The position numbers were made by a program, and so were the translations under genes. DNA of 64,000 nt from an uncultured Alphaproteobacteria bacterium (GTDB lineage: Bacteria > Pseudomonadota > Alphaproteobacteria > Micavibrionales > Micavibrionaceae), in NCBI GenBank assembly GCA_937923625.1, contig CALDTV010000015.1, positions 1 to 64,000 on the forward strand. The letters run 5' to 3'. The notes below the pieces were generated by a model. The model worked only from the letters and a program-made list of their open reading frames with translations, did no database searches and was not told the DNA's origin. Below are positions 34,661 through 40,609 of this stretch, piece after piece (position 1 is the first letter of the stretch; each line of letters opens with the position of its first letter).

Positions 34661-35755
<1,095 letters not shown>

Positions 35756-36627: not shown

Positions 36628-37339
36628 TTAAAAAGTAACTTTAACGCCTGTTAAAAATGTGTGCAATACAACACCATCATTGGCCACAACACGTGGCAAG
36701 ATCAACGGTACAAAACTAGAATTGAATAAATATTCTGCCCCTATTGCTACATTAGGGTGCAAACGCATTTCTAATCCTGCAACAAATTGATCCATGCTTT
36801 CCCATTCATCGCCACTATTCCCTTGGATTCCTTGGTTATACATAATTGAATAAGTCGTTGGGAATTTCCAAATATAATCTTTGTAACGACCTTGTAGATT
36901 AAGGGCATGAACATGCGCGCCAGTCGCTGGCCATTCATCTAATGTTCTGCTGAACTCACCCATAAAGTCAAAAGAGCCGATGCTGTATTTTGCATTAACA
37001 TTCCATGCTGGTGAGCTGTCACGATAGAATAGGGAACTTTCCATCGGTGTTTGTACGCTCACTGATGACTGTACCGTTAAAAGGCCCACCAATTGTTAGT
37101 TTGTTATCTTTGAGTGTGCCGTTTTGACGCATTTTTAATTGCTGCGCGGCTTTGTCGGTTACATGATTTTGACGGTCAAACATAATTTCAGACGCTTCGC
37201 GTGATAGACCAATGTGCGGTGGCATACCTGCATCGACTTCTTTTTGAATATCAGGGAAGGGGGTTAAACGCTGATCTGTTTGTGCCTTAGCTTGAGTTGC
37301 TGATAAGAGTAGTAGCGATAACAGGAGTAATTTTTTCAT
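36628..37339 (-). pseudogene. Decayed outer-membrane beta-barrel protein gene
   Basis: Two overlapping frames together look like one porin-type gene. The 5' part (37339-37019) gives a signal peptide MKKLLLLSLLLLSATQAKAQ and the start of a barrel (LTIGGPFNGTVISERTNTDG, then KFPILS) and then stops. The 3' part, in another frame, gives SPAWNVNAKYSIGSFDFMGE, a series of strands and the ending LTGVKVTF with a C-terminal Phe, typical of outer-membrane barrels. The total is far shorter than a normal porin, so an internal deletion causing a frameshift near 37020 is the best explanation. Two real overlapping genes are a less likely alternative. Confidence 0.55.
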
Positions 37340-37378: not shown

Positions 37379-37933
37379 TTAAAATTTTTCTTTACCGCAT
37401 GACATTGCTGCAGAGCCCGTACGGCTAATATTCTTCATACCAAAGGGAGTAATTTTTTCTAAAAATTCGTCAACTTTGGCTGTCGTATCAACATATTGAA
37501 ATACATAGGATTCCTCTGTTTTATCCGTAACAATAGCGCCATATTCATTGGCAATATCATAGGCTTTTAACAAATCATCTTGATTGCTCGCAATTTTGAT
37601 GAGGACTAAATCACGCTCTATGTGTGGGCCAAGAACCGTTAAGTCCGTTACTTTATGAACGGGTACTAAACGCGCCAGTAAATTAATAATTTGTTCAATC
37701 ACATCGGGCGTCCCCGTAATAACAACGGTAATGCGCGATTGGTTTAATTTCTCACTCACTTCAGCGACAGTCAAACTATCGATGTTATATCCACGGCCAG
37801 AGAACAGGCCGATGATACGTGATAAAACCCCTGGTTCATTATCTACTAAGATAGATAAAGTATGACGCGCTATTTTACGCTCACCTGGGCTGTCACCGTA
37901 AACGGATTGGTTTTTCTTTTCGTCTTCAGTCAT
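37379..37933 (-). CDS. ilvN: Acetolactate synthase small (regulatory) subunit
   Basis: 184 residues. The N-terminal ACT domain reads HTLSILVDNEPGVLSRIIGL followed by FSGRGYNIDSL, the valine-binding region for feedback inhibition. A C-terminal ACT-like domain contains ALSE-type segments. It starts 17 bp after the ilvB stop, so the two are one operon under the attenuator at 39812-39941. ilvN and ilvH are equivalent names. Confidence 0.96.
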   Translation of the reverse strand: MTEDEKKNQSVYGDSPGERKIARHTLSILVDNEPGVLSRIIGLFSGRGYNIDSLTVAEVSEKLNQSRITVVITGTPDVIEQIINLLARLVPVHKVTDLTVLGPHIERDLVLIKIASNQDDLLKAYDIANEYGAIVTDKTEESYVFQYVDTTAKVDEFLEKITPFGMKNISRTGSAAMSCGKEKF

Positions 37934-37950: not shown

Positions 37951-39753
37951 TTATACTAATTTTTTGTCAAATTTTTCGGCATCTGCTGCCAGAATCATTT
38001 CGTTATGGGCTTTGCCTGATGGGATCATCGGGAAACAATTTTCAGACTGACAAACATTCACATCAACAATTGTTACTTTGTCAGTTTGCAACATTTGTTC
38101 GATCACGCCATCAAGCTCATCGGGTGTGGTAGCCCGCAAGCCAACGCCGCCATAGGCTTCGGCGAGCTTCACAAAATCAGGCAAGCTTTCAGTGTAGCTT
38201 TGGGAGTAACGTTCCCCATGCAGCAATTCTTGCCACTGGCGCACCATCCCCATCCATTGATTATTTAGGATAAAGATTTTTACGGGAAGATTATATTGCA
38301 CTGCCGTACTCATCTCTTGAATATTCATTAAGATTGACGCTTCGCCCGCAACATCAACCACCATGCCATCTGGGTTGCCCAGTTGCGTGCCTATTGCGGC
38401 GGGAAGGCCGTAGCCCATTGTCCCTAATCCACCAGAAGTCATCCAACGATTTGGTTTGTTAAATGGTAAGAACTGCGCCGCCCACATTTGGTGCTGACCG
38501 ACTTCGGTCGTGATAAAGCTTTCTTGCCCTGTTTCTTTTTCATTTTTTTGTAAAAAATGATTGAGGCGTTCTAACGCATATTGCGGTTTAATAATCGTGT
38601 CAGACTTTTTGTAAGATAAACATTTAACGGCGCGCCATTCATCAATCTGGCTCCACCATTTATTCAGCTCTTCATGGTTGGTTTTATAGCCTTTGTCTTT
38701 CCAAACATTCAGCATCGCTTCAATTGTTTTACCCGCATCGCCAATGATGGGCAGATCAACATGGATAATTTTATTAATAGAACTTGGGTCAATATCAACG
38801 TGAATTTTCTTTGAATTCGGTGAAAATTTAGTCACATCCCCCGTTACACGGTCATCAAAACGTGCGCCAATGTTAATCATGACATCACAATCATGCATTG
38901 ACCAATTGGCTTCATAGGTGCCGTGCATCCCCAACATTCCCAACCATTGCTCGTCATGGGCGGGGAAAGCGCCCAAGCCCATCAATGTTGAAGTGATAGG
39001 ATAGCCAGTGGCTTTCACAAATTCAGTGAGGTCTTTAGACGCTTTTGGCCCTGCATTAATAACACCGCCACCTGTATAAAAAATCGGCTTCTTGGCATTA
39101 GCGATCATTTCTACCGCTTGTTCAATAGCCGCCATATCAGGATCAGTTTGCGGCTTGTACATGTGCGTAATCGCTTTGTCTTTGGCGATGTAATCGCCTT
39201 CGGCAAATTGAATATCTTTTGGTAAATCAATAACGACGGGGCCGGGGCGTCCTGTTCCTGCAACATGAAACGCTTCGTGCATGATGTTTGGTAAGTCATT
39301 TACGTTTTTGACAAGGTAGTTATGTTTTGTACAGGGGCGCGTAATGCCCGTTGTGTCGGCCTCTTGGAAAGCATCATTCCCAATCAAAAATGTGGGTACT
39401 TGGCCCGTAATACAAACAAGGGGAATTGAATCCAGCAAGGCATCCGTTAATCCCGTTACCGCGTTTGTTGCGCCAGGGCCGGAGGTTACGAGGATAACAC
39501 CCGTTTTTCCTGTTGATCTTGCATAGCCTTCTGCGGCGTGTGCCGCGCCTTGTTCATGACGGCAAAGAATATGCTTAATTTTGTTTTGTTGAAAGAGCGC
39601 ATCGTAAATCGGTAAAACCGCGCCGCCAGGATAACCAAATATGGTATCAACCCCTTGTTCGATCATGGCTTCAATTACCATTTCCGCCCCAGAAAGCTGT
39701 TTTGTCTTATTTGTTTGATTAGATGATTTTTGTTTTAATGCTGTTGTGTTCAT
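37951..39753 (-). CDS. ilvB: Acetolactate synthase large subunit
   Basis: A ThDP enzyme forming acetolactate or acetohydroxybutyrate. The product is about 600 residues from the ATG at 39753; a TTG at 39789 would add 12. Motifs are VDTIFGYPGGAVLPIYDALF, the ThDP glutamate in CRHEQGAAHAAEGYARS, and the metal/diphosphate segment AGEASILMNIQE followed by ILNNQWMGMVRQWQ. No convincing ribosome-binding site was seen for either start. It is preceded by the attenuator. Confidence 0.96.
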   Translation of the reverse strand: MNTTALKQKSSNQTNKTKQLSGAEMVIEAMIEQGVDTIFGYPGGAVLPIYDALFQQNKIKHILCRHEQGAAHAAEGYARSTGKTGVILVTSGPGATNAVTGLTDALLDSIPLVCITGQVPTFLIGNDAFQEADTTGITRPCTKHNYLVKNVNDLPNIMHEAFHVAGTGRPGPVVIDLPKDIQFAEGDYIAKDKAITHMYKPQTDPDMAAIEQAVEMIANAKKPIFYTGGGVINAGPKASKDLTEFVKATGYPITSTLMGLGAFPAHDEQWLGMLGMHGTYEANWSMHDCDVMINIGARFDDRVTGDVTKFSPNSKKIHVDIDPSSINKIIHVDLPIIGDAGKTIEAMLNVWKDKGYKTNHEELNKWWSQIDEWRAVKCLSYKKSDTIIKPQYALERLNHFLQKNEKETGQESFITTEVGQHQMWAAQFLPFNKPNRWMTSGGLGTMGYGLPAAIGTQLGNPDGMVVDVAGEASILMNIQEMSTAVQYNLPVKIFILNNQWMGMVRQWQELLHGERYSQSYTESLPDFVKLAEAYGGVGLRATTPDELDGVIEQMLQTDKVTIVDVNVCQSENCFPMIPSGKAHNEMILAADAEKFDKKLV

Positions 39754-39811: not shown

Positions 39812-39840
39812 AAAAAAAGCCCCGAATAAATGTTCGGGGC
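39812..39840 (-). terminator. Attenuator terminator of ilvBN
   Basis: On the minus strand GCCCCGAA (39840-39833), loop CATTTA, TTCGGGGC (39826-39819) and seven T (39818-39812). It lies between the leader peptide and ilvB. Confidence 0.93.
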
Positions 39841-39900
39841 GCTTATCGGAAAACTGATCTTTTACAAATGCATCAGGCCGCAAGCGCTCCGGTCAGGAGC
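39836..39900 (-). promoter_or_regulatory. ilvBN antiterminator and pause hairpin segments
   Basis: Segment 1, GCTCC (39900-39896), pairs with segment 2, GGAGC (39890-39886). Segment 2 extended, GGAGCGCTT (39890-39882), can instead pair with AAGCGCCCC (39844-39836), eight of nine positions. This uses up the 5' arm of the terminator. The arrangement is the classical 1:2, 2:3, 3:4 attenuator logic. Confidence 0.8.
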
Positions 39901-39941
39901 ACCACCACATTCAGCACGACAAGGTCAGTATTTCTTTGCAT
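39873..39941 (-). CDS. ilvL: ilv leader peptide (22 residues, Val/Leu-rich)
   Basis: The frame reads MQRNTDLVVLNVVVLLTG followed by ALAA and a stop. Five of 22 residues are Val and five are Leu, fitting a sensor of charged valyl- and leucyl-tRNA. The control codons overlap segment 1 of the attenuator. The stop is 33 nt before the terminator stem. There is no ribosome-binding site, and the promoter places transcription at the ATG, so the peptide is probably made from a leaderless message. The name is used by analogy. Confidence 0.85.
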   Translation of the reverse strand: MQRNTDLVVLNVVVLLTGALAA

Positions 39942-39948
39942 GGTTATA

Positions 39949-39977
39949 TTATTACGTGATTTTCAATTTTTACGCAA
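39949..39977 (-). promoter_or_regulatory. ilv promoter
   Basis: On the minus strand TTGCGT (39977-39972) and TAATAA (39954-39949) have a 17-bp spacer. The predicted start is about 39942-39941, i.e. at the A of the leader peptide ATG. Confidence 0.65.
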
Positions 39978-40024: not shown

Positions 40025-40609
40025 ATGCAATTAAATGAGCGTTTAAGTGATTCAATAAAAAGAGCGGGATATGACAATTATAATATGAGTCCAATCGCTC
40101 ATAATCCCGCTTTTGTAACCCCAGACGGAGAGCATGAAATTTTTTCTTGTGAAGTACGCTTCAACCGTTCTCAAGAGACTGCAGCCATCCATAGCTTTCG
40201 CGTTTATGAACCATTTACAGGAAAAAAAATAGCGGCTGTTGCTTTAAAAGAGATTGCCATTCACGCTTTATCTGAATCCGTGAAAGAAATTAAAATTTTA
40301 CTTGTGAGGGGAGATGGACTTAGTTTTTGGCCAAGATTTGGTGCTTATCCGCAAGATCCGCTTTGTCAAAAATCCTTTACTGCTCCGCACGAGGATGAAA
40401 GTTTTTTGTCATCGGAAAAAAGTATTTTTGATGAAGCTTTCGCACGCGCGGCAAAAAATCCTATAGATGCGTGGCATTATATTTCAGCGCCAGAGACAAA
40501 AGCGAGTAACGATCTTATAAAATACGTCAATAGAACTGCTCTTAATAAAACGATGACATTACCTTTGCGATGCCCAGTTGTTCAAAGACGTTTAGGGATT
40601 AACGTTTAA
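40025..40609 (+). CDS. Hypothetical protein
   Basis: 194 residues, no signal peptide or membrane helix. The middle holds a helix AAVALKEIAIHALSESVKEI and a strand IKILLVRGDG. No family was recognised. There is no ribosome-binding site. The gene is divergent from ilvBN, with 83 bp between the two start codons, and overlaps the end of miaA by 4 bp. Confidence 0.6.
   Translation: MQLNERLSDSIKRAGYDNYNMSPIAHNPAFVTPDGEHEIFSCEVRFNRSQETAAIHSFRVYEPFTGKKIAAVALKEIAIHALSESVKEIKILLVRGDGLSFWPRFGAYPQDPLCQKSFTAPHEDESFLSSEKSIFDEAFARAAKNPIDAWHYISAPETKASNDLIKYVNRTALNKTMTLPLRCPVVQRRLGINV

Follow-up and report, generated by a model that had tools for sequence, protein, structure and literature searches.

We found that the ilvB(N) operon in the 64,000-nucleotide stretch of DNA analysed here (the window) is preceded by what is very probably (about 85%) a ribosome-mediated transcription attenuator whose leader-peptide mRNA would be leaderless. 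An earlier note had described attenuator parts ahead of ilvB at 39812-39977 on the minus strand, and each part that it named was found where it had placed it. Read on that strand from 39977 to 39812, the layout is TTGCGT-N17-TAATAA-N7-ATG, followed by a 22-codon ORF and a terminator. The TTGC of the -35 element TTGCGT (39972..39977, minus strand, as are all the parts that follow) lies at -35/-36 relative to the ATG of the leader, a position conserved in nearly all unambiguous family leaders, and the -10 element TAATAA lies at 39949..39954. The leader peptide ORF, MQRNTDLVVLNVVVLLTGALAA, occupies 39873..39941 (22 codons plus stop) and contains five Val and five Leu codons, together 10 of the 22. 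Within and beyond it lie region 1, GCTCC (39896..39900), which is complementary to GGAGC and formed a pause hairpin with region 2 in the minimum free energy fold of the untranslated leader; region 2, GGAGCGCTT (39882..39890), whose partner is either region 1 or region 3; and region 3, AAGCGCCCC (39836..39844), the antiterminator partner of region 2. The GGAGCGCTT:AAGCGCCCC duplex has eight pairs with one A.C mismatch, and the 3' part of region 3 doubles as the 5' arm of the terminator hairpin (3:4), GCCCCGAA-CATTTA-TTCGGGGC (39819..39840), whose stem of eight pairs is followed by a U-tract of seven T (39812..39818). The terminator site was also recovered by a terminator scan of the window, and a 49-nt terminator fragment had a folding z of -3.75. 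When both strands were scanned for a Val/Leu/Ile-dense ORF with a terminator, this module proved to be unique in the 64 kb, and the attenuated RNA would measure about 125-130 nt. An Rfam scan of the window gave no family above the gathering threshold, the small RNA matches all being sub-threshold.

Downstream of the attenuator on the minus strand lie ilvB (37951..39753, ATG at 39753), encoding the acetolactate synthase large subunit with three TPP-enzyme Pfam domains, and ilvN (37379..37933), encoding the small subunit with ALS_ss_C and ACT domains. A 358-residue ORF at 34661-35737, two genes beyond ilvN, was taken on inspection to be ilvC. Between ilvN and ilvC, two overlapping ORFs in different frames were seen at 36628-37339 (minus strand), the downstream one with a weak porin match; this pair is possibly one frameshifted gene. 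On the other side of the ilv promoter, a 194-residue plus-strand ORF without a Pfam match (40025-40609) separates it from a gene about 660 bp from the leader ATG that is, judging by inspection, presumably miaA.

The analysis was extended to ilvB loci gathered from the Micavibrio-related alphaproteobacterial family of the source genome; the grouping of genomes was not tree-based, and membership in Micavibrionaceae proper is provisional. Homologous Val/Leu/Ile leaders with a terminator were found at 51 family ilvB loci in at least 18 genera, a few of these loci deriving from near-identical genomes and one (L027), which has no ATG start, being dropped from later counts. Relatives are not independent, and counting by genus softens this kinship effect without removing it. 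Leader ORFs, terminators and coevolving stems were conserved in 18 genera, which bore out the reading of the element as an ilvB attenuator. At 15 or more family ilvB loci, L009, L014, L018, L021, L022 and L026 among them, no leader was detectable. At some loci of this kind we observed an A/T-rich stretch resembling TTATAAT.TTATTTCG and other hairpins instead, suggesting that the attenuator has been replaced by another control. Separately, L005, L008, L010, L025, L028, L031, L111, L113 and L117 carry a second module in the interval of 280-430 nt that separates ilvB from the ilv terminator, made up of a promoter-like ATG(T/A)C(T/C)ATAATA, a conserved CCTCC and a terminator-like hairpin followed by U-rich sequence; it was not found in the genome of the window.

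We then considered the distance between promoter and start codon. The promoter TTGCGT-17-TAATAA of the earlier note is present in the sequence and its spacing is kept in relatives, but a strict sigma-70 consensus scan returned no promoter at the leader. The pattern TTGC-N19-TAA-N10-ATG had five occurrences across the genome (2.05 Mb), the same number as the reversed pattern used as control, and this genome-wide count was dropped as evidence for leaderlessness. The promoter and its putative start site are thus not significant from a single sequence and become significant only by comparison. In 31 leaders there was just one candidate ATG and the upstream sequence was long enough; TTGC started at -38 to -34 from the ATG in 26 of them, compared with a mean of 0.82 and a maximum of 4 in 300 shuffles; the count was limited to these leaders because in ambiguous ones the start codon had been picked with the position of TTGC known. 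By genus, TTG stood in the expected place in at least one member of 18/18 and in most members of 17/18; it was missing there from the near-identical L031 and L119 and from two other leaders. Aligned on their ATG, the family leaders were A/T-rich at -45 to -38 and had conserved T/A/A at -13 to -11.

The base preceding the ATG and the strength of the Shine-Dalgarno pairing were determined in all leaders, ambiguous starts included. The -1 base was C in 28 leaders and T in 20, and never a purine (0/48), whereas a pyrimidine stood at -1 in 28 of the 54 long ORFs of the window that served as a comparison set. Bacterial transcription usually starts with a pyrimidine at -1 and a purine at +1, about seven bases past the -10 element, and this start-site geometry coincides with the A of the leader ATG, which places the probable transcription start of the window's leader at 39941. 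The median energy of the duplex with the anti-Shine-Dalgarno sequence was -0.9 kcal/mol for family leaders versus -6.25 kcal/mol for other alphaproteobacterial ilvB leaders, and a duplex of -5 kcal/mol or stronger was found in 1/49 family leaders versus 12/16 outgroup leaders. These results agree with the earlier proposals that the leader has no Shine-Dalgarno sequence and that its RNA would begin at the A of the ATG. The case for a leaderless start, weak from one sequence, appears strong across the family.

The pairing of the stems was examined in the same set of leaders. Column-based covariation of regions 2 and 3 was diluted by alignment gaps (4/500 shuffles reached the paired percentage), and a partner-swap test was therefore used. 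In 50 leaders, region 2 paired with its own region 3 at a mean of -17.2 kcal/mol versus -15.35 ± 0.32 kcal/mol for permuted partners, a value reached by none of 20,000 permutations, and when the opening 35 nt of the ORF were paired with region 3 instead, the energy was -6.2 kcal/mol. Matching variants were seen, such as GGGGACGC with GCGTCCC in L010 and AAGGGCG with CGCCCTT in L005. Covariation in the terminator stem was 0.347 versus 0.188 in shuffled alignments (0/500), and a slid stem reached at most 0.155. The compensatory changes across related genomes that had been suggested as a check were thus seen both in the own-partner fit of 2:3 and in the terminator stem. Folding of the untranslated RNA of the window gave 1:2 plus 3:4. 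With the RNA masked by a ribosome to nt 43-51 and made as far as nt 112, 2:3 formed with eight pairs, and with the mask extended to nt 61 or further, 3:4 was the only possible stem. At equilibrium, masking of region 1 did not keep the full RNA from favouring the terminator, so the switch would have to be kinetic, which is typical of classical attenuators. The element combines the structural features of an ilv attenuator, namely a leader ORF directly upstream of ilvB that is rich in end-product codons, a terminator and a mutually exclusive antiterminator positioned for translation of the leader to decide between the two.

Based on these features, we propose the following mechanism. RNA polymerase would start on the first base of the leader ATG, or one or two bases from it, and the 5'-terminal AUG would load the ribosome without a Shine-Dalgarno sequence. 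When charged tRNA-Val or tRNA-Leu is scarce, the ribosome would stall at codons 12-16 (GUG GUG GUG CUC CUG) and cover region 1, allowing 2:3 to pair and ilvB to be transcribed. When charged tRNAs are ample, it would reach the stop codon and cover region 2, the 3:4 terminator would form, releasing about 130 nt of RNA. If the leader is not translated at all, 1:2 and 3:4 would both form and transcription would stop. The parts, their conservation and coevolution and the fixed spacing of promoter and ATG are observed, and from them we infer the exact start site, the translation of the leader, its regulatory response and its specificity for these amino acids.

Similar leaders were seen at leuA. In the genome of the window, leuA (contig 16 of G000, locus L151) is preceded by the ORF MQLVNSKNNLLLSLLLIAL, with TTGACT at -36, TACAAA at -12 and T at -1. 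In 20 Leu-rich family leuA leaders (L151 and the range L160-L189), TTG[A/C/T] lay between -35 and -37 and the -1 base was a pyrimidine, although in L163, L167, L183 and L186 the start was picked among several ATGs with the spacing already known. The family leuA leaders look leaderless, with the same geometry as those of ilvB. Downstream of these leaders lies a conserved hairpin (CGGG.ATGAGGC...) that lacks a U-tract, and a CTCCTTA run of Leu codons could, in several leaders, pair with the AAGGAG Shine-Dalgarno sequence of leuA. The leaders had no match in Rfam; in arrangement they may be likened to the LEU element of Actinobacteria (PMC1262725), a likeness only. Inspection of the sequence upstream of trpE and hisG in the same genome revealed no attenuator.

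A classical attenuator with a normal 5' untranslated region, transcribed from a promoter farther upstream and translated either without a Shine-Dalgarno sequence or by re-initiation after an upstream gene, is an alternative that we consider unlikely. Coupling would be possible at seven family loci, where the stop of an upstream ORF (apparently miaA at the same-genus loci) lies 11-21 nt ahead of the leader, but such a stop is absent from most family leaders, and the window has no co-directional ORF ending close to the ATG, the presumed miaA being about 660 bp away with a plus-strand ORF in between. Translational coupling to miaA was accordingly rejected as impossible in the window and rare among relatives. 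Moreover, an upstream promoter leaves the fixed spacing of TTGC and the invariant -1 pyrimidine unexplained. TTGC is also the core of the -12 element of sigma-54 promoters, and if the conserved TTGC were such an element the 5' untranslated region would measure about 20 nt; the GG expected at the matching -24 is missing, however, columns -48 to -44 being A-rich or unconserved, and the separate TAA at -13 to -11 with the -1 pyrimidine fits a promoter of the sigma-70 type. With no -24 GG, the sigma-54 promoter was rejected, and we give it only a negligible chance. As a separate observation, in relatives of the same genus the stop codon of the upstream ORF, apparently miaA, falls inside the -10 box of the leader.

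The leaderless attenuator might in addition release an RNA or peptide with a function in trans, like rnTrpL and peTrpL of Sinorhizobium meliloti, and the earlier note had raised a trans-acting product as an inference. The argument for it is by analogy, S. meliloti being another alphaproteobacterium with a similarly designed leaderless attenuator RNA that has a trans role (PMC7298713). Our comparison lent the idea no support: conservation was lowest, at 0.25 bits per column, in the segment from the leader stop to region 3, and only 0.64 in the variable N-terminal codons, whereas regions 3 and 4 carry about 1.3-1.4 bits per column (all leaders, ambiguous starts included). A seed would naturally sit in the stretch that precedes region 3. 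Neither a conserved seed nor a conserved peptide for trans action was seen among the family leaders, nothing beyond the requirements in cis stands out in their conservation, and evidence of a target is lacking. Weak conservation is not decisive against a trans role, because the peptide is likewise unconserved between species among the relatives of S. meliloti (PMC7298713), and we regard such a role as very doubtful. A broader proposal is also unlikely: that leaderless starts are a fixed design of the ilvB and leuA attenuators of the family, that readthrough follows both tRNA charging and how well the cell can carry out 70S leaderless initiation, and that the RNA of about 130 nt may act in trans.

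Each part of the proposed leaderless attenuator has counterparts in known systems. In Caulobacter crescentus an ilvBN/ilvIH attenuator with ilvL was proposed from ribosome profiling and RNA-seq (PMC4117421), and it resembles the present one in being an alphaproteobacterial ilv operon with a short branched-chain leader ORF and an intrinsic terminator; the Caulobacter relative in our set (L105) differs in having a GTG start, a Shine-Dalgarno sequence (GGAG), TTGAC at -57, that is, a leadered mRNA, and another peptide. Leaderless transcription has been reported for ilvL, among others, of Streptomyces lividans, which likewise has a leader peptide upstream of ilvB and a likely Rho-independent terminator (PMC8079986), but this is an actinobacterium with a 13-residue peptide and only four branched-chain codons, and the likeness is one of design. 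The ilvBNC attenuator of Corynebacterium glutamicum, also an actinobacterium and with another peptide, is described in the title of a cited work as having a leader peptide without a ribosome binding site (Morbach 2000, cited in PMC10272879). The trpL RNA of the alphaproteobacterium S. meliloti is a leaderless attenuator that begins at the leader AUG, and it differs in its Trp codons, its target trpE(G) and its trans roles, which were shown experimentally there (PMC7298713, PMC10117765). Leaderless ilv and trp leaders are thus known from Streptomyces, Corynebacterium and Sinorhizobium, and the kind itself is therefore not new. We found no report of a leaderless ilv leader in Proteobacteria in the searchable literature, a weak negative as subscription papers lie mostly outside it. 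The parts are known already; what is new is the family-wide lock between promoter and leader start, unlike the rest of the class.

This family provides a comparative case of a leader start codon held at a fixed place relative to its promoter; in most of the other alphaproteobacterial leaders examined, that regulated gene uses a Shine-Dalgarno sequence. How leaderless initiation affects attenuation is directly testable by swapping both leader types in one host. The comparison also yielded about 50 ilvB and 20 leuA leader peptides that would probably be missed in ordinary gene calling. The ilvB leaders in relatives of Caulobacter and in Rhodobacterales and Hyphomicrobiales mostly combine TTGAC at -53 to -62 with a Shine-Dalgarno sequence. 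Among them, the ilvB leader of an Amylibacter sp. metagenome-assembled genome (L088, Rhodobacterales) has TTGAC at -35 and no Shine-Dalgarno sequence, the other Rhodobacterales leaders being led by one, suggesting a second, independent leaderless ilvB leader.
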